A stretch of DNA of 64,000 bases from Roseibacillus persicicus. Its GTDB lineage: Bacteria > Verrucomicrobiota > Verrucomicrobiia > Verrucomicrobiales > Akkermansiaceae. Positions 54,747 through 64,000 of this stretch are shown here, in pieces. The notes below the pieces were generated by a model that was not told the origin of the DNA, did no database searches, and saw only the letters and a list, made by a program, of their open reading frames with translations. The position numbers and the translations under genes were made by a program. Location: NCBI RefSeq assembly GCF_014651675.1, contig NZ_BMXI01000007.1, positions 62,001 through 126,000 of the forward strand, read 5' to 3'. Every line of letters starts with the position of its first letter. The first letter of the stretch is position 1.

Positions 54747-57143
54747 TTGAAAAAAAGCGGTCTTAAAAACCGGACGATATGTACGTCCTTAGTCTCGGTT
54801 GTTCTAGGCGGTATGACTTTAAGTCTACCCGGACAATCAGTGGTGCAGCAGGAGCTGGAGCGTCGTCGCGATAACGTGATTGCTGCAGAGGAAGCGATTA
54901 TGGCAGGCGACGACGCCTACCAAAAATCGGACTTCCAAGAAGCGGTATCCAAGTATCGCGAAGCCTTTGCCAAAGTTCCTGCCGGTGATAAGACGGACAA
55001 GTTTCGAGAGGCGGCTCGTGAACGCTATGCGCAGGCCGCAGTGCAAGCTGCCCGCGTGATGAATAGGCAGGGAGATCGTCAAGGTGCAATCGAGATGGTC
55101 GATGAAGTCTTGGGGAAGGATGTTTTTCCCGAGTATTTTCCAGCTCAAAAGCTCAGAGCTCAGTTGGACGATCCGATTCGTTCAAATCCCTCCGCTACGG
55201 AAGAGCATGGCCAGAATATTGATGAGGTGCGTCGTCTCCTTTATCAGGCTGAGGGAGCTTACAATTTAGCTGATTTTGACCAGTCGATGGCCCTCTATAA
55301 TAAGGTGCTTGTGATCGACCCTTACAACAAGGCGGCTCGTCGCGGGTTGGAGCGAAACAATTCCCGGATTTCAGACTACGCTGATGCCGCCCGTGACCAC
55401 ACTCGGGCGGAATTGATTTCACAGGTAGATTCCCAGTGGGAGTTGAAGAAGAACCAGGATGTTCAGGTCGCCGACGGGATTGTGACCGAAGGGGCGGCTG
55501 GAGGAACTTTTGGTATAAGCGGGGCCAATCAGATCGAAGCCAAGCTAGACAATATCATCGTTCCTTTCGTTGATTTTGAGGAGACTTCTTTGGTCGAGGC
55601 TGTTGAATTCTTGGAAGGCCAGTCGCGGGCTTTGGATCCGGAGATCATGGAGGAGAACAAGGGCATCGATTTCGTCATGAATATGGGTTCCGGCAACTCT
55701 CCTGAAATCGACGAGCTTCTCCAGCGTCGATTCTCATTCCGTTTGCGGAATGTGCCTCTTCGTCAGGTGGTTGAATATGTAACTCGCCAGTCGGGAACTT
55801 CGTTTCGGGTAGACTCTTATGCCGTGGTGATTCAGCCTGCTTCGGGGCTGACTGATGATGTCGTTGTGAAGCGCTATCAAGTGCCACCTAATTTTCTGAG
55901 CCAGACATCAGGGAGTGTCGCGGATAGCGATCCTTTCGGGTCAGACAGCGGTGGAGGCGGGACGCTTGCCCCCCGTTTGACGGCGCGTGAATATCTGGAA
56001 AATGCCGGAGTTCCTTTTCCCGACGGTAGCAGTGCGAGCTACAATTCCAGTTTGGGCCAGTTGGTTGTGAAGACCACAGAAGCCGGACACGACGAAGTTC
56101 GCGGGATTGTGGACGCCTTGAATTTGCAAGAGCCGATCGCGGTGGTGATCGAGACCAAGATTGTTCGGGTGAGTCAAGAGAACCTCGAAGAGTTTAACGT
56201 AGATGTTGCGATTCAGAATCTTGAGGCTTCCGGGGATCTCGTTGTCGGAGGCGGCACGGTTGGGAATGGTCGTCAGAGTGATTACTACGGAGGCAACCCC
56301 ATTACCTCCGGTCTCCGGAGTGGTGATTTCGCCACCTCTGGTGACGCGATCGAGACCGTTCTCAATGACGAAGGAGGGGCGAGTCTCAATTCCGCGCCTG
56401 GATTTCTTTCCATGCTGGGCATTGCCAACGACCATGCGGTTTCCGTTCTTTTGAGAGGGCTGAACCAGAAAAAAGGAACTGATATCTTGTCTCAACCTTC
56501 GGTGGTAACCCGTTCCGGACAGCAAGCTATCGTGGAGTCGACCCGCGAGTTGATTTACCCAACCGAGTATGAACCACCAGAGCTTCCGAACTCCGTGGGT
56601 GCGACATTGATTGATATCAACACGGGGATCGAGACTGATGCCGGAAGTTCTTTTTCCGCTACCCCTTCACACCCAACTGCGTTCGAGACTCGCAAGCTTG
56701 GAACTTTTCTCGAAGTTCAACCGACGGTTAGCGCGGATCGTACTTACGCTGATCTGGCCTTTAACCTCAATATTGAGGAGTTTCTCGGGTTCATCAATTA
56801 TGGAGAGCCGATTCAAGGGGGAAGTTCGACGCCGGATTTCGGAATCATTGGAGCAGGCTCTTCGATCTCAGGGGAGGTGACTTCGAATGATATTTTGATG
56901 CCTCTTTTCAATGTCGTTCGACTGAATACCAATATCTCGGTCGGCACGGGTGAGACTATACTCCTTGGAGGAGTTCTCAATGAGAAGGTCGAGATGGTGG
57001 AAGATAAGGTTCCTGTTCTTGGGGATGTTCCTTTTCTTGGTAAGCTTTTCAGATCAGACGCCTTACAGCGTAATAAGAGCGTGGTGATGGTGTTTGTGAC
57101 CGTTCGAATCGTTGACCCTGCGGGCAATCCGGTACAGAAGTAG
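54747..57143 (+). CDS. Outer-membrane secretin (GspD/PilQ-type, Amuc_1098-like)
   Basis: A 798-residue outer-membrane channel protein of the type II/IV secretin superfamily. TTG start gives a signal peptide (MKKSGLKNRTI...LPGQ). Residues about 40-230 are tetratricopeptide-like (GDDAYQKSDFQEAVSKYREA and GAYNLADFDQSMALYNKVLV), followed by STN/N-type modules and the secretin core at about 560-795, with the VPVLGDVPFLGKLFRS signature. This arrangement resembles the Akkermansia Amuc_1098 pilus secretin; in that genome the genes Amuc_1099-1102 are adjacent, and they are missing here. The gene leads a unit with an AsmA-like protein (35 bases later) and an ATPase. It therefore looks like an orphan secretin with new partners. 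The exported substrate is unknown. Confidence 0.88.
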   Translation: MKKSGLKNRTICTSLVSVVLGGMTLSLPGQSVVQQELERRRDNVIAAEEAIMAGDDAYQKSDFQEAVSKYREAFAKVPAGDKTDKFREAARERYAQAAVQAARVMNRQGDRQGAIEMVDEVLGKDVFPEYFPAQKLRAQLDDPIRSNPSATEEHGQNIDEVRRLLYQAEGAYNLADFDQSMALYNKVLVIDPYNKAARRGLERNNSRISDYADAARDHTRAELISQVDSQWELKKNQDVQVADGIVTEGAAGGTFGISGANQIEAKLDNIIVPFVDFEETSLVEAVEFLEGQSRALDPEIMEENKGIDFVMNMGSGNSPEIDELLQRRFSFRLRNVPLRQVVEYVTRQSGTSFRVDSYAVVIQPASGLTDDVVVKRYQVPPNFLSQTSGSVADSDPFGSDSGGGGTLAPRLTAREYLENAGVPFPDGSSASYNSSLGQLVVKTTEAGHDEVRGIVDALNLQEPIAVVIETKIVRVSQENLEEFNVDVAIQNLEASGDLVVGGGTVGNGRQSDYYGGNPITSGLRSGDFATSGDAIETVLNDEGGASLNSAPGFLSMLGIANDHAVSVLLRGLNQKKGTDILSQPSVVTRSGQQAIVESTRELIYPTEYEPPELPNSVGATLIDINTGIETDAGSSFSATPSHPTAFETRKLGTFLEVQPTVSADRTYADLAFNLNIEEFLGFINYGEPIQGGSSTPDFGIIGAGSSISGEVTSNDILMPLFNVVRLNTNISVGTGETILLGGVLNEKVEMVEDKVPVLGDVPFLGKLFRSDALQRNKSVVMVFVTVRIVDPAGNPVQK

Positions 57144-57178
57144 CCTTTGGTTAGTTATCTGACCAACAGCCCCCGTCG

Positions 57179-58633
57179 ATGAACAAGAATTCAACCGAGA
57201 AAAATACCTACTCCGTCGACGAGATGATGGAGAAGCTGCGCGAAGGCGATCGCGAGAAGCGCGAGGAAGGCGAATTAGTCACTCGCGAGGACGGGACCCA
57301 AGTCCTTCGTGTGAAAAAGCGTAAGCGGCGCAGTAAGCAAAAAAAGGAAGAAGAGGCGAAGCGTCGCAAGAGGAATCTGGTGCTTCGAACTTTTGCTCTC
57401 ATTGCGATACCTTTGCTCTTGGGTTTAGGTATTGTTCTCCAACTGGTCAGATTCCATAGTCCTGGATTTTCCAAGGGTGTAGTTGCAGCGGTCTGGGAAA
57501 AGACGGGAGCAAATGCGAAAATCAACCGATTGAGCCCGCTGGGGACCAAGGTTACCGCGCAGTCACTCACTTTGGCTTGGCCAGATGATTCTCCTCTCGA
57601 GCAAGTCAAGGCGACCACGGTTTCAGGGGATTTGAGTCTCACTTCGTTCGTAACCGGTCGATTGGGAGGCGAGGAGCTTGGTTCCGAAAAAGGGTATTTG
57701 CTCACTTCCGGCCGAAAGGATCGGAAGGTCAGCCAACCGAAAGGGGAAGCCGCGAATCTGGTAGGTTTCAAGCGCTATACAAGTGACAATTTCTCATTTT
57801 ATTTCGGAAAAGTGAATTCGCCCTTCCGCTTGGAAAACTCGCGGGTGCGTTTCATTCCCACCGCCTATTCCCGTCAGTTGCATCTCACGGGCGGCAGCCT
57901 AATTTCTGGTTCTTGGGGCGAAGTCCCCTTGAAGCGAGGAACAATCGAATTTCTGGAGAACACTATGAGGGTGGTCTCCCTCCGGTTTGAGGAAGAGCAA
58001 AGGCATCTTATTTTCTCAGGCGATTTGGACTTGGCTGACTCTTTCCACAGCCTCTCGGTGGAGGTCGTCGAGGGCAACGTCGGGAACGTCGGAGGCTACG
58101 GATACGAAAGATTCTTCGAAAGTGATTTGGCTGGTTCGACCGGAACTTTGACTTTCCGTCCCTGGAATATTGAGAGTCACGAGGTAACGATTTCAGCGAA
58201 GCCAGAATACCTGACTCTTAAGAATCTGCCTTTTCTGAGTGTTTTGGAAGAGTTGTATGGCGATGCTCGTTTCCAAAACTTTGAGTTCGAACTCGAGAAC
58301 TCTTTCGATATTGTCAGAAGTTCGAAAGGGTCGGAAATCAAGAATTTGGATCTACTGGAGCTAGGAATTCTTGCCGTTAAAGGAAATCTCAGGGTAGAGG
58401 GTCGAGAGTTAAAGGGAAATCTAAAGGTTGGCCTCAATGCTCATAAGAAGCTCTCTCTCCGTAACGCGCAGCGTGATGAGTTGTTCAGCAAGGGCAAACT
58501 GGAGAGTGGATTCTTCTGGTTCGATGTTGAGCTCAGCGGTTCGGTTGAAGTTCCGAGGGACAATTTTTCAAGTTATCTTCAAGCGGGGCCAAATGCCAGC
58601 GATGAGGATTTGTTCGAGCAGTTGACCCGCTAA
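57179..58633 (+). CDS. Membrane-anchored AsmA-like protein of unknown function
   Basis: A 484-residue protein. The N-terminal about 65 residues are cytoplasmic and strongly basic and coiled (KREEGELVTREDGTQVLRVK, then KRKRRSKQKKEEEAKRRKRN). One transmembrane helix follows (about 68-92, VLRTFALIAIPLLLGLGIVL). The rest is exported and beta-rich, with repeating LRV..L.G-type strands reminiscent of AsmA-like proteins that bridge the envelope. The family assignment is weak. It begins 35 bases after the secretin and may link it to the inner membrane, taking the place of a GspC- or PilP-like connector. Confidence 0.7.
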   Translation: MNKNSTEKNTYSVDEMMEKLREGDREKREEGELVTREDGTQVLRVKKRKRRSKQKKEEEAKRRKRNLVLRTFALIAIPLLLGLGIVLQLVRFHSPGFSKGVVAAVWEKTGANAKINRLSPLGTKVTAQSLTLAWPDDSPLEQVKATTVSGDLSLTSFVTGRLGGEELGSEKGYLLTSGRKDRKVSQPKGEAANLVGFKRYTSDNFSFYFGKVNSPFRLENSRVRFIPTAYSRQLHLTGGSLISGSWGEVPLKRGTIEFLENTMRVVSLRFEEEQRHLIFSGDLDLADSFHSLSVEVVEGNVGNVGGYGYERFFESDLAGSTGTLTFRPWNIESHEVTISAKPEYLTLKNLPFLSVLEELYGDARFQNFEFELENSFDIVRSSKGSEIKNLDLLELGILAVKGNLRVEGRELKGNLKVGLNAHKKLSLRNAQRDELFSKGKLESGFFWFDVELSGSVEVPRDNFSSYLQAGPNASDEDLFEQLTR

Positions 58634-58803
58634 TGTGCTAAAGCCATTGGTGGCAGTTCGCTCCCCCAGTACGCTCTTTCCTAGCGAGGGCTTATTGTTT
58701 GTTCCGTTTGCCATGGTGGTGTCTCGACGGATTAGTACGCCATTCGAGCTTGCGGCGAGACCCTCTTTCCAAAAAACTCCCCATAGCGAAAAGCCTTTTC
58801 CCC

Positions 58804-61242
58804 ATGTCCGATTTCAACAAGCAGCCGACCCTATTCGAAGTATTTGGGCGCACTACAACCCCCACGGTTCCAGAGATTAATGAGGAGGCGCTCGATACTC
58901 TGACCAATGTTCTCACCTCCTCGGGAGATGATTTGGGAAAGGTTGTTCTGTTGCGGTCGCCGCGTGCAGGATATGGCAAAACCCTTCTTTTGCAGTCTGT
59001 TAGCAACCGCCTCAATGAGACCTTTCGCTTTCTGGCGGTGGAACCCAGTGGGGGTGGACGAATTGATGGCGAGGTGGTTCTCGAAAGTGTGTTGCGACAG
59101 CTGTCTGAGGTTCTGCCAGCTTCCGGCGGTTTGACCGAATTCGATCTCTTCGCTCGCAAGCTACTGGCGATTGGATTGAAGCCACTGCTCATCAGCGGGG
59201 AAATTCCCAGTCATGATCGCGAAGGTGCACTCTTTGCGATTGAGAATCGTCCCATTGAGACTTTCGATTTTCATCACCAACAAGCAGCTACAGCCCATTG
59301 GACTCAGGCCAACTTTGAGGTTCTTGGTCCGCGCTTGGCCTCAGAGCTCAGTGAGATTTCACGCTGCACTCTACGTGGGTGCGCCTATTGGGTGGATTTG
59401 CTGTTTCGCTATGCCACCACTCCACCGGAAAAGGTCGAACGAACCCGACTGCTTACCGAAGCTGTATTTGGCGACCTACCAGGGCAGGGGAGTAGTGGCG
59501 CTGAAGAGCGGTTGCAGAGTTTGTTTGCGCTGTTGGGTCTGGTTGAGCCTGTTGTTTTGGTCTTTGACGAAACGGAAGGTTTGTCCAATCAGCCGGAGGC
59601 AGGGCTTCGCGTGGCAGCCTTTATCGTTCAACTTCGTCAAGCGTGTCCGAGTCTGACAGTGATTCTCAGTGTCAACGAAGACGTTTGGGAGACCGGATTG
59701 AAGCCTCTCATGCCTGGCGGTCTGGAAGACCGGTTGACGGAATACGAAGTGTCATTGAGCGCTCTGAAACGGAGTGAGGCTGACACTCTCCTGGAGAGCC
59801 GGTTCGGGAGGGAAGCATCTTTGGTCCGCGAAGCAATGTCTTGGCCTGAGCCTCTCTCGGCCCGTGGGGTTCTCCGGGAAGCGGCCCTTGCCGTCCGCAA
59901 ACTTTCTCAAGAAGCAGCTTTCGTTGAAGATGAAGAACCGCCCTCGGAGCCTGTGAGCCGGGGAGTGATGCCACCCCCTTTGGATAGTGTTCTTTCTCCA
60001 GAAGTTGAGCAAAGACTTGAACCAAGCACCGCCTTTGAGGCCGAGGCAATTCCGTCCGGAGAGGCTTCTCCTCGCTCGAAGGACGAGGATTCAATTCCAG
60101 TTGAACCTTCTGGAGAGCCGACTTTCGCAGATCCATTCCGTGAAGTAGCGCAAGAAGAGCAAAGCTCTCCTGTTGAGCAACCGGCGCTCGTAGAAGAACA
60201 AGTTGCTGAACCCGAAAGATCACCGTTCGAAATTGTGCCTGAGGGCACGACTTCGAGCAATGAACCTGCAGAAAATATCGCTGCTCCTGAAGTTGCCCCC
60301 GAAGATCCTTTCGCAGATGCTGGAAATTCTGATTTTGCCTCCAGCCCCAAGGTGAATCCGGGCGAGTGGTCGGCCGAAACTGCGATGAAGCAGTTTGCTG
60401 CCGCTCAGCCAGAGGCTCGTCCTTCCCAAGAATCTGCAGAAGCTTCCGGCAGGCCTTCAGAAGTCGAAACGAAAAGTCCGTTCGATTTGGTTGAACCTGA
60501 GGTTGAGTCCTCTCCCGCGCCTGCGGAGCCGAGAGCCGCTTCAGTTGAGCCGAGTCCTTTCCAAGTGCTCAAGGAGGAAAAGGAACGTGCCGAAGCGGAA
60601 GTTCGCGAGCAAATGTCGTTCCCGGCAAATAGCGCTGGGAGTTCGACGGGGGAAGCATCTTCTCCGTTTTCCGTTAGTCAGCCCGCGGTACCAGCTCAAC
60701 CGCCTGTCGAGGCTTCGCCTCCCGCTGCCTCCTCCCAATCTGATCACCCCGGCAACAATTCACCTTTCAGCATCAACAAGTCCTATTCGTCCGAACCATC
60801 TGTGAAAATGACGGAGGAGGAGGAAAGGATGCCGACAACAAGCGCTGCTAGCGTGGAGTCGCCCTTCGCAGCTGTTCGGGAAGAGCGCGCGGTTGAGAAG
60901 ACTGCTGACTCTGTGAACTCTCAGGCTTTGTCTCCAACACTTCCGGATCGCGAAGAGCCGGCTCCGCAGCCTCATTCGGTTCCACCCCAGCTGCCAGCCG
61001 AGGAGAGACCCTCATTTGAAGAAACATCTCAACCAGCTCCAGTCTCGGAGTCGTCGTCTCCTGCGTCAGCAGATCCGGCTAGAGAATCAGCCTTCGCCGC
61101 AACGTCACCCTTTGCAGCAGCTCCTACTTCAGCCAAGGATGTCCAAGCTCCTGCCGAGAGCGCAAGCTCGGGGCAAGATACCTCCGAAGTTGAAGAGCTG
61201 TTGAGCCAATTCAAAAAGCGATTTGGGCAGCCAGGCTCATAA
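58804..61242 (+). CDS. AAA-type ATPase with disordered [S/D]PF-repeat tail
   Basis: About 812 residues from ATG at 58804; the frame is open from 58699 without a conserved look. The N-terminal about 370 residues hold an AAA/STAND-like ATPase: degenerate P-loop RSPRAGYGKT (51-60, Pro in place of Gly at the first position) and Walker B VLVFDETEG with Asp255-Glu256. The C-terminal half is low-complexity Pro/Ser/Glu and almost certainly disordered. It carries nine copies of a short motif, [S/D]-P-F followed by mostly hydrophobic residues, starting at residues 443, 473, 501, 558, 584, 620, 653, 686 and 768. A short predicted helix (EVEELLSQFKKRFG) closes the protein. No family is recognised. It follows the AsmA-like gene, so a role with the secretin is possible. 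Confidence 0.8.
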   Translation: MSDFNKQPTLFEVFGRTTTPTVPEINEEALDTLTNVLTSSGDDLGKVVLLRSPRAGYGKTLLLQSVSNRLNETFRFLAVEPSGGGRIDGEVVLESVLRQLSEVLPASGGLTEFDLFARKLLAIGLKPLLISGEIPSHDREGALFAIENRPIETFDFHHQQAATAHWTQANFEVLGPRLASELSEISRCTLRGCAYWVDLLFRYATTPPEKVERTRLLTEAVFGDLPGQGSSGAEERLQSLFALLGLVEPVVLVFDETEGLSNQPEAGLRVAAFIVQLRQACPSLTVILSVNEDVWETGLKPLMPGGLEDRLTEYEVSLSALKRSEADTLLESRFGREASLVREAMSWPEPLSARGVLREAALAVRKLSQEAAFVEDEEPPSEPVSRGVMPPPLDSVLSPEVEQRLEPSTAFEAEAIPSGEASPRSKDEDSIPVEPSGEPTFADPFREVAQEEQSSPVEQPALVEEQVAEPERSPFEIVPEGTTSSNEPAENIAAPEVAPEDPFADAGNSDFASSPKVNPGEWSAETAMKQFAAAQPEARPSQESAEASGRPSEVETKSPFDLVEPEVESSPAPAEPRAASVEPSPFQVLKEEKERAEAEVREQMSFPANSAGSSTGEASSPFSVSQPAVPAQPPVEASPPAASSQSDHPGNNSPFSINKSYSSEPSVKMTEEEERMPTTSAASVESPFAAVREERAVEKTADSVNSQALSPTLPDREEPAPQPHSVPPQLPAEERPSFEETSQPAPVSESSSPASADPARESAFAATSPFAAAPTSAKDVQAPAESASSGQDTSEVEELLSQFKKRFGQPGS

Positions 61243-62183: not shown

Positions 62184-63233
62184 TTAATCTCTGTGACGGC
62201 GGAGGCCGAGGCCAATGAGAGCGAGGCCACCAAGAAGAGCGGCGGAAGGTTCGGGAATGGAGGTGAGTTGAACTTGCAGGTTGTTTCCTGAAATTTGGCT
62301 CATCCAGCCCGCATTGACTGCATCAACGCTCAGGGTTGGGGCGCCGGTTACGGTGCCTTCCCAAGTCATCACTGTGTGCCAGATGTCGGGAGTGGCTCCG
62401 CCGAGATCGTAAGGATCCAAGATTGAACCTGCGGCAAATGTCGCATTGCCTTGCAAGCCGGCCCCGTCGTCATCGACGTCGTCGATCAGAATCGTAGTCA
62501 TGCCTCCGGCATCAATTCCGGTGCGGAGAACTCCGCCGCTAGCTTGCTCCCAATTGCCATCCAGGCTGGCTGAGGAGCCGATTCCGATCGTGATTGGCGC
62601 GCTGCCGGCGACATGAAAAGTGCCGCCACCGAAGATCTCGACGTCATTGCGGTTGATGAAAGAGCCCGCCGTGATGTTGATCGTTCCGGTGCCAGAAAAC
62701 CCGAGCTCGAGGCCGCCTCTTCCCAGAATCAGGTCGCCACCATTGACGTTGATGGTCCCGCTGGAATCGGCGGCACTACCCACCACAATTCGCCCTGCCT
62801 CAAGGTTTGTGGTGCCACTCACAATATTAAGTATACTGTGCTTGTTAGCCCGCGTGCCGACATTCGCGCTGCTGCTGTTGGTCGCTCGGATGGTGTTGCC
62901 TACACCTTGGTCCAGAGTGAGAGTGTGGGTGCCGCTATCAGCACCTGCGTTGCTTTCACCCATCAGCAGGCGTGCAAGACGATACTCGGTTGAACTATGC
63001 AATAGGTTGTTGGAGTCCAAATAACTCCAAGTCCCCGCATTCAAGGTGACATCGGAATCTCCCACTATGAGGATGTTGGAAGCGTTGCTTGCTGGAACGC
63101 TATCGCCGAGCCAGTTGTCGGGATCTTCCCAAGAGGTGCCGTCTCCATCGCCAGTGAATGTGTCCGCGTGGGCCGCCATACTGGTGAGGAGAACCCCCGC
63201 GAAGGTTGCGGTTTTTCTATATTTGTATTTCAT
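62184..63233 (-). CDS. PEP-CTERM beta-strand repeat surface protein (third locus)
   Basis: A 349-residue exported protein with a signal peptide (MKYKYRKTATFAGVLLTSMA ending HA). The body carries short beta repeats like a small pseudo-autotransporter (VTLNAG, LTLDQGVGNTI, TINVNGGDLILGRGGLELG, GTINITAG, GTFHVAGSAPI). The end is IPEPSAALLGGLALIGLGLR followed by RHRD, a PEP-CTERM tail. It is directly downstream (29 bases) of another large beta-strand repeat protein on the same strand, again a small tagged protein beside a large untagged one, though here the order is reversed and no shared globular domain is visible in the part seen. Confidence 0.9.
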   Translation of the reverse strand: MKYKYRKTATFAGVLLTSMAAHADTFTGDGDGTSWEDPDNWLGDSVPASNASNILIVGDSDVTLNAGTWSYLDSNNLLHSSTEYRLARLLMGESNAGADSGTHTLTLDQGVGNTIRATNSSSANVGTRANKHSILNIVSGTTNLEAGRIVVGSAADSSGTINVNGGDLILGRGGLELGFSGTGTINITAGSFINRNDVEIFGGGTFHVAGSAPITIGIGSSASLDGNWEQASGGVLRTGIDAGGMTTILIDDVDDDGAGLQGNATFAAGSILDPYDLGGATPDIWHTVMTWEGTVTGAPTLSVDAVNAGWMSQISGNNLQVQLTSIPEPSAALLGGLALIGLGLRRHRD

Positions 63234-63262: not shown

Positions 63263-64000
63263 TTAATTTGTCGTCAAACTAGCTTGAACGCGGACGAAGA
63301 GTTTCTCCTCGGTCGGCAAGGTCGAGAGGGTGACGTCGACCGTTTGGTTGCCATTTCCATCTGTCACCCCTGCGGTCTGAGTTGCACCTGCATCCAAGGT
63401 CCAGTCGTCTGCTTCCAGCGTCGTGGAGGTGTAGACGGAGTAGGAGAGCTCTGTGCCCAGGGCGGGGTCGCGGCGGGTATAGCTGAAAGTGCCGCTGGAT
63501 CTATCGAGAACCATCTTGATGGGGTTCAGTGAACTTGCGTTGTTTGGCTCAAGTCCAAAAGCATACTCCTCAAAGTTGGAGAGACCATCGTTGTCGTCAT
63601 CGTCGCTTGCTTCGCCTGTTAGGCCAAATCCGACCGCCCAAGTATCGTAGTCGCCTCCATCAACGGGGTCAGAGGTGACAATGAGATGTCCTGTTCCTGA
63701 GAAGTGGGTGTCGTCCTGATTGGCCGCACCCGAGGAGGTGCTACCGTAGGTTCCGGCTGCCACTTGCACCCCATCGATGAAGAGCTTGTCGACGGTATCA
63801 CCCACTCCATGAGTGAGTTCAAGGTTGGCCGCGTTTGCAGATAGAGTGTTGTCGATGATGACGCTGGATGAATCCGCGAGAAAGGGGGTCGCAAGACTCA
63901 AGGTTCCATCATGAATGGTCGTGTTTCCGGTATAGGTGTTTGCTCCGGTCAGCACTTGGACGGTCGCTCCCGTGGAGGCTGCATCACCCAGTTGGAGGTT
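63263..64000 (-). CDS. Autotransporter-type beta-strand repeat protein, C-terminal fragment
   Basis: The C-terminal 245 residues of a large exported protein whose start lies beyond the right edge; the frame stays open to 64000. The visible start, NLQLGDAASTGATVQVLTG then ANTYTGNTTIHDGTLSL, is a textbook autotransporter-associated repeat unit. A low-complexity Asp linker (EASDDDDNDGLSNFEEYAFG, a calcium-binding-like thrombospondin-type-3 or dockerin-like phrase) and a C-terminal beta module (LSYSVYTSTTLEADDWTL ... LFVRVQASL) end it, similar to the ends of the esterase-like protein at 6128. No PEP-CTERM tail. Confidence 0.85.
   Translation of the reverse strand, partial: NLQLGDAASTGATVQVLTGANTYTGNTTIHDGTLSLATPFLADSSSVIIDNTLSANAANLELTHGVGDTVDKLFIDGVQVAAGTYGSTSSGAANQDDTHFSGTGHLIVTSDPVDGGDYDTWAVGFGLTGEASDDDDNDGLSNFEEYAFGLEPNNASSLNPIKMVLDRSSGTFSYTRRDPALGTELSYSVYTSTTLEADDWTLDAGATQTAGVTDGNGNQTVDVTLSTLPTEEKLFVRVQASLTTN

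Follow-up and report, generated by a model that had tools for sequence, protein, structure and literature searches.

In type II secretion systems (T2SS), the gene of the secretin GspD (PulD) may lie beside that of GspN (PulN), a protein with a single inner-membrane helix and a periplasmic AsmA-like beta-groove (PMC12802150, 2025). This pairing offers a precedent for the surface display of lipoproteins, in which the AsmA-like part is accessory and occurs in some lineages only (PMC12802150). Inner-membrane anchored grooves of repeating beta-strands are also found in TAM (TamA-TamB), YhdP and YdbH, and TAM too has an outer-membrane partner. A different kind of secretin is represented by the Amuc_1098 family, to which the "PilQ" of Akkermansia muciniphila belongs and whose gene stands beside those of MUL2, a pilus-like system discussed for the Akkermansiaceae (PMC13174399). 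In a search of the literature, no paper was found that links A. muciniphila with the term "AsmA family". As described below, a locus of Roseibacillus persicicus, a member of the Akkermansiaceae, brings together a secretin of the Amuc_1098 family and an AsmA-like protein.

The DNA analysed here, hereafter called the window, is a stretch of 64,000 nucleotides that corresponds to C7:62001-126000 of the 258-kb contig C7, within a searched genome of 5.28 Mb. The three open reading frames of the first-pass annotation were confirmed on the forward strand (3/3) at the same positions, and their features are collected in Table 1. Upstream of them lies a topoisomerase-IV-A-like gene, whereas the minus strand downstream encodes a PEP-CTERM protein (window positions 62184-63233) and the last part of a large reading frame that is rich in repeats and autotransporter-like (63263-64000). 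The closest named relative at the locus is Roseibacillus ishigakijimensis, with 67% identity in the secretin.

Table 1. Features of the secretin locus, in positions of the window
Feature	Positions	Strand	Basis or remark
SEC2, second Amuc_1098-family outer-membrane secretin, 798 aa	54747..57143	+	NF042912, Pfam Secretin; TTG start
Secretin domain, residues 572-790	56460..57116	+	Pfam PF00263, E 3.9e-26
AsmA-like single-pass inner-membrane protein, 484 aa	57179..58633	+	AlphaFold model, fold matches; starts 35 bp past the secretin
Cytoplasmic tail of the AsmA-like protein, residues 1-65	57179..57373	+	column information, alignment
Single transmembrane helix of the AsmA-like protein, residues ~66-92	57374..57454	+	KD 2.58; model helix H54-92
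Periplasmic beta-groove of the AsmA-like protein, residues 112-460	57512..58558	+	model strands, amphipathicity
Soluble AAA+ ATPase, ORC/Cdc6/TnsC/STAND type, 812 aa from ATG	58804..61242	+	Walker A/B, fold matches
Disordered ATPase tail with nine [S/D]PF motifs and C-terminal motif VEELLSQFKKRFG	59932..61239	+	motif count against shuffles; homologues

The secretin of the locus, SEC2, begins with a hydrophobic, signal-peptide-like N-terminus, followed by a TPR-like region and the secretin barrel. It scores 852.5 bits against NCBIfam NF042912 (Amuc_1098 family type IV pilus outer-membrane protein), above the cut-off of 750, and falls with 92.4 bits below the cut-off of 351.35 of the GspD model TIGR02517; it scores far under the PilQ model as well. 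A second NF042912 member is found in the same genome on contig C2 (L096:9831-12437), where it scores higher than SEC2 (1124 bits) and closes the gene order Amuc_1102, Amuc_1101/PilM, Amuc_1100, Amuc_1099, Amuc_1098, each gene being matched by its own NCBIfam model, as in the MUL2 locus. Further secretins are encoded in a T2SS-like operon on C6, with a T2SSK domain and GspD as the best secretin model (its 247 bits do not reach the cut-off of 351), and in a type IV filament operon on C1 with GspE, GspF and a prepilin. Because of the C2 copy and these additional loci, SEC2 is a diverged paralogue of the Amuc_1098 pilus-type secretin and not the only secretin of the genome. It resembles that family in passing its curated cut-off and in domain order, but it is a distinct paralogue that forms a clade of its own in the family and has an AsmA-like neighbour, and none of the Amuc_1099, 1100, 1101 (PilM) and 1102 genes accompanies the window copy, these being placed on C2 with a secretin of their own.

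In this regard, the first-pass annotation had described an orphan secretin deprived of its usual platform, pilin and GspE/PilB partners. The second part of the claim is borne out, since neither PilM/N/O nor a pilin, GspE or GspF neighbours SEC2, and the genome search gave no GspE or GspF match anywhere on its 258-kb contig; such matches were located on contigs C1, C2, C4, C12 and C15, with one sub-threshold on C5. The word orphan must be qualified, the protein being a paralogue of a known pilus secretin in a genome with pilus-like and T2SS-like loci elsewhere. Two observations on the family may be added here. The NF042912 model, an "equivalog", spans two paralogues with different gene contexts, so that both would be named type IV pilus outer-membrane protein. 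Moreover, contig C20 of G000 (L098:8989-9831) encodes a 280-aa protein that starts with a lipobox-like LNAC and contains only part of a secretin domain, nearest to the Amuc_1098 family; it would be either a lipoprotein derived from a piece of a secretin or the product of a decayed gene.

The pairing of SEC2 with the AsmA-like gene was surveyed in 58 genomes (36 of the family and 22 from other families of the order), each searched for members of the secretin family and for homologues of the single-pass protein. By coordinates, the lower-scoring secretin stands directly before the AsmA-like gene and on the same strand in 31 of the 36 family genomes, with G033 as the 32nd and with G006 counted as paired on a partial match. 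The unpaired genomes differ in what they have kept: G002 has no full secretin of the Amuc_1098 family, G007 and G019 present the MUL2 copy and no second full secretin, and G005 retains the second secretin with the AsmA-like partner missing. The pair also occurs in 5 of the 22 genomes from other families. In G142 (L255), taken here for the type strain of A. muciniphila, it is located at about 1,979,150-1,983,330. Among 80 independently retrieved named loci, the secretin is accompanied by the AsmA-like gene in 52, by MUL2 genes in 24, by neither in 4 (short contigs) and by both in none. The gap between the two genes has a median of 33 bp (range -46 to 122; 64 loci), the outer neighbours on both sides vary between genera, and the order is kept over dozens of genera at approximately 32-42% identity for the secretin and 20-30% for the AsmA-like protein. 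Such a conservation of the secretin-AsmA order is far beyond chance, and the single-pass protein with a large periplasmic part that had been proposed as the partner of the secretin is thus stably paired with it across the family.

On the other hand, the two genes are not inseparable. SEC2 is found without the AsmA-like gene in four Akkermansia genomes (G005, G120, G129, G133), which have a DUF374-like gene directly after the secretin, and SEC2-like copies lacking an AsmA-like neighbour occur in family f4. In other Akkermansia, the DUF374 acyltransferase-like gene comes after the AsmA-like one (L255:11350-12075; L270, L271, L272 and L277 compared), and this neighbour may be taken as a hint of a lipid connection. 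Pairing as a trait of all Verrucomicrobiota was considered and discarded, since in other orders the AsmA-like matches lack the cytoplasmic tail and the MUL2-like locus often carries tandem secretins.

In a tree of 73 secretins, the family copies that are paired with AsmA, those of Akkermansia excepted, form one clade with a support of 100, which was recovered again in a second analysis. The SEC2 copies of Akkermansia are found close to those of MUL2, at the end of a long branch, and a single clade with the other AsmA-paired copies was not rejected (p-AU 0.37). MUL2-like loci with two tandem Amuc_1098-type secretins are often seen in other orders and families of the class and also in G050, of the same order (L245-L252, in G119, G155, G136, G132, G089, G126, G131 and G050). 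In the tree, the AsmA-paired secretin of G050 groups with the second tandem copy. The tandem secretins of other orders and this grouping point, without proving it, to an origin of SEC2 by tandem duplication of the pilus secretin.

Hydropathy of the AsmA-like protein shows a single strong peak, near residue 72, in agreement with a single pass through the inner membrane. Its AlphaFold model (29 homologues; pLDDT 82.5, pTM 0.69) consists of a long N-terminal helix and some 18 serial strands. Against the PDB, Foldseek gave only LPD-3 (E 2.1e-4) and TamB (4.4e-4) below 0.001, and a second alignment (VIA) ranked ApoB (Z 7.9), TamB (6.9), LPD-3 (6.3), Vps13 (6.0) and Atg2 (5.6), values that are middling when taken alone, yet mostly name lipid-groove proteins. 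With regard to sequence, Pfam found no AsmA match in the window protein itself, some of its homologues approached profiles of the AsmA clan at sub-threshold levels in every case (DUF748 0.0016, AsmA 7.5e-4, YhdP 0.092), and PDB sequence searches returned nothing convincing for this protein or for the neighbouring ATPase. The assignment comes from the model, which shows a repeating beta-groove of the AsmA type, and from these weak hits of homologues. The strands of the model alternate between hydrophobic and polar residues, as expected of a groove, with an amphipathicity of 2.11 versus 1.26 in shuffled strands (P 0.0005). Arithmetic on the model (strands x 0.48 nm), which is not a measurement, yields a groove of 8-9 nm, which would be too short to cross the periplasm and might perhaps reach the vestibule of the secretin.

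The best-conserved part of the protein is however the cytoplasmic tail (residues 1 to ~60/65), with a column information of 2.4-2.75 bits compared to ~1.7 in most of the rest and a motif that reads YSxDEMM ... ELVTRxDGTQVxKVRKRKRRSxQ. A second copy of this tail was not found in the genome. The motif is conserved whether the ATPase gene is adjacent, elsewhere or absent, and because it persists in the latter two situations the tail should bind some other cytoplasmic partner. AsmA-like relatives without the tail exist on contigs C9 and C1 of the same genome and across the class. A gene judged by eye to resemble a ribosome hibernation factor adjoins the tail-less paralogue on C9 (L101:3450-5860), and a similar one adjoins the secretin-AsmA pair in G027 (L128:8770-11106).

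As for the third gene, its start is most likely the ATG at 58804 and not the TTG at 58699, because homologues begin there. Its product has a P-loop AAA+ domain (residues ~27-376) where Walker A and B and further residues are invariant, and its model (pLDDT 87.6) aligns with Cdc6 (Z 14.9), RdrA (14.1) and TnsC (13.9); Pfam matches to AAA_16, AAA_22, NACHT and STAND all stay below the cut-off in the window protein. It shares the domain fold of the ORC/Cdc6, TnsC and STAND-type AAA+ proteins and departs from them in a long disordered tail of 437 residues, 60% of which are P, E, S and A. Nine [S/D]PF motifs are found in the tail against 2.5 expected, a number attained in 0 of 500 shuffles, and the C-terminal motif VEELLSQFKKRFG (VxxLLxQFxxRFG) is common to most close homologues, several of which also share the SPF/DPF repeats. 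The tail looks like a multivalent scaffold of linear motifs. A motor of the GspE/PilB type was rejected, there being no T2SSE domain (PF00437), in line with the initial view of an ATPase of an unrelated kind with a long disordered tail. Assembly factors of the ExeA/GspA type have a transmembrane helix and a peptidoglycan-binding domain after the AAA domain; this identity was rejected too, since the window protein has no membrane helix, its strongest hydrophobic segments being inside the AAA core, and no peptidoglycan-binding Pfam domain.

In the family, 12 genomes have the ATPase gene next to the pair, as do 16 of the 80 named loci. It is placed at unrelated sites in G009, G014, G015, G021, G026 and G027, and it is absent from about 16 family genomes, many of which keep the pair, whereas G002 has the ATPase with both secretin and AsmA-like partners missing. 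The ATPase had been put forward as a third conserved component, with conservation of the three-gene order as one way to check it; this check preserved the secretin-AsmA order and reduced the ATPase to a neighbour in a minority of genomes. Since it is elsewhere or absent in most pair-bearing genomes, and present in G002 without the pair, the ATPase is a facultative neighbour and not a required part, and it probably does not belong to the unit.

Altogether, we tentatively favour, at somewhat less than even confidence, a two-gene envelope unit in which a dedicated secretin and an accessory AsmA-like groove work like GspD with GspN for lipid-anchored cargo. The secretin would have arisen by duplication from the Verrucomicrobial pilus-type secretin of the Amuc_1098 lineage. 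A short beta-groove anchored in the inner membrane would, at that membrane, shield or extract the acyl chains of cargo that carries a lipid anchor (or is itself a lipid) and, in contact with the secretin, hand the cargo to its periplasmic vestibule for surface display. The AsmA-like partner, lost from some lineages, would be accessory, and the driving force would come from motors of type IV filaments encoded elsewhere, shared with those filaments, and not by the neighbouring AAA+ protein. Lipid-anchored cargo is favoured because anatomy and optionality are the same as in GspD-GspN: in both cases a secretin is combined with a single-pass inner-membrane AsmA-like groove from a neighbouring gene, and in both the groove may be missing, here in the four Akkermansia genomes that keep the secretin. 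To some extent, the T2SS pair already answers the early impression that the combination was not a recognisable system, an impression that remains valid insofar as this secretin-AsmA unit is uncharacterised. The window pair differs from GspD-GspN in that its secretin is not GspD, its AsmA-like protein has an extra conserved cytoplasmic tail of ~60 residues, and there are no T2SS genes at the locus. The T2SSN domain (PF01203) had no match in the R. persicicus genome and exceeded the cut-off in 0 of 115 Verrucomicrobiota genomes, and therefore a likeness in working to GspN is claimed here, not membership. Against such a likeness also count that no motor or pseudopilin gene lies near SEC2 and that AsmA-like proteins elsewhere deal with phospholipid movement without secretins.

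The same anatomy admits other functions. The AsmA-like protein could help to assemble or anchor the secretin, in the manner of GspB/OutB or ExeAB, with SEC2 serving the ordinary pilus, MUL2 or another type IV filament; we regard this as rather unlikely, albeit the strongest competitor. Scaffolds fastening a secretin to the cell wall or the inner membrane are indeed known (PMC9239104, PMC4098917), SEC2 belongs to a pilus secretin family, and the tandem secretins of other orders lie inside a MUL2-like locus. Furthermore, two adjacent PilT/PilU genes stand beside SEC2 in G033 (L274:7568-9775), and a PilT/PilU pair lies within a few kb of it in G005 (L270:1-2339) and G133 (L272:7268-8999), which might indicate a link with retraction. 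This PilT link is nevertheless restricted to 3 of more than 100 loci, and in the same genomes MUL2 is served by a dedicated secretin, the two contexts never mixing in the 80 loci. A role in lipid homeostasis, with the AsmA-like protein moving phospholipid outward and the secretin as an outer-membrane dock in the place of TamA, appears unlikely. The predicted AsmA-superfamily fold and the DUF374 acyltransferase-like neighbour in Akkermansia speak for it; no BamA/TamA-family gene was found beside the AsmA-like gene, the adjacent outer-membrane gene being the secretin. The arrangement differs from TAM in that a secretin multimer would stand at the outer membrane and in that the groove is far shorter, its ~18 strands falling short of spanning the periplasm alone, and this bridge is further weakened by the other AsmA-like proteins of the genome (C9, C1) and by the loss of the AsmA-like gene in some Akkermansia while SEC2 stays.

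The machine of three parts that had been imagined at the outset, with secretin, bridge and an AAA+ motor or scaffold touching the AsmA-like protein at its conserved cytoplasmic tail, seems doubtful. The adjacency of the ATPase gene in a part of the genomes, the strength of conservation of the tail, which suggests a cytoplasmic partner, and the repeated SPF motifs of the ATPase, which could be multivalent, would all suit it, but the fold of the ATPase is that of ORC/TnsC proteins and not of a secretion motor, the motif of the AsmA-like tail is conserved regardless of adjacency, and the distribution of the ATPase described above separates it from the pair. Least probable of all, and in our opinion hardly credible, is that secretin and AsmA-like protein act independently and lie together by chance or co-regulation. 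The genes can certainly be separated, as in the four Akkermansia genomes and in f4, but an order maintained with a short gap at such low AsmA identity, while the outer genes change, is difficult to reconcile with mere neighbourhood.

Returning to the GspD-GspN-like unit, the pilus-type secretin family and the GspD-GspN pairing were already known; what has gone unrecognised so far is a separate SEC2-AsmA unit under the shared name. The curated name of the Amuc_1098 family hides two secretin loci with different partners in almost every Akkermansiaceae genome, that of A. muciniphila included. A broader conjecture, to which we assign a low probability, is that of a family-wide lipid conduit without a T2SS, in which a secretin and not a barrel of the TamA/BAM type would form the outer-membrane end of the groove and bring lipids, or proteins with a lipid anchor, to the cell surface in A. 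muciniphila and related bacteria. Through its pairing with AsmA, the second secretin acquires a ready hypothesis, the surface delivery of lipid-anchored cargo, that can be tested by way of the 2025 work on GspN (PMC12802150). If true, the principle of a secretin plus a beta-groove would be extended beyond the T2SS, in a phylum where the biology of the cell surface is important for the use of mucus and algal glycans.
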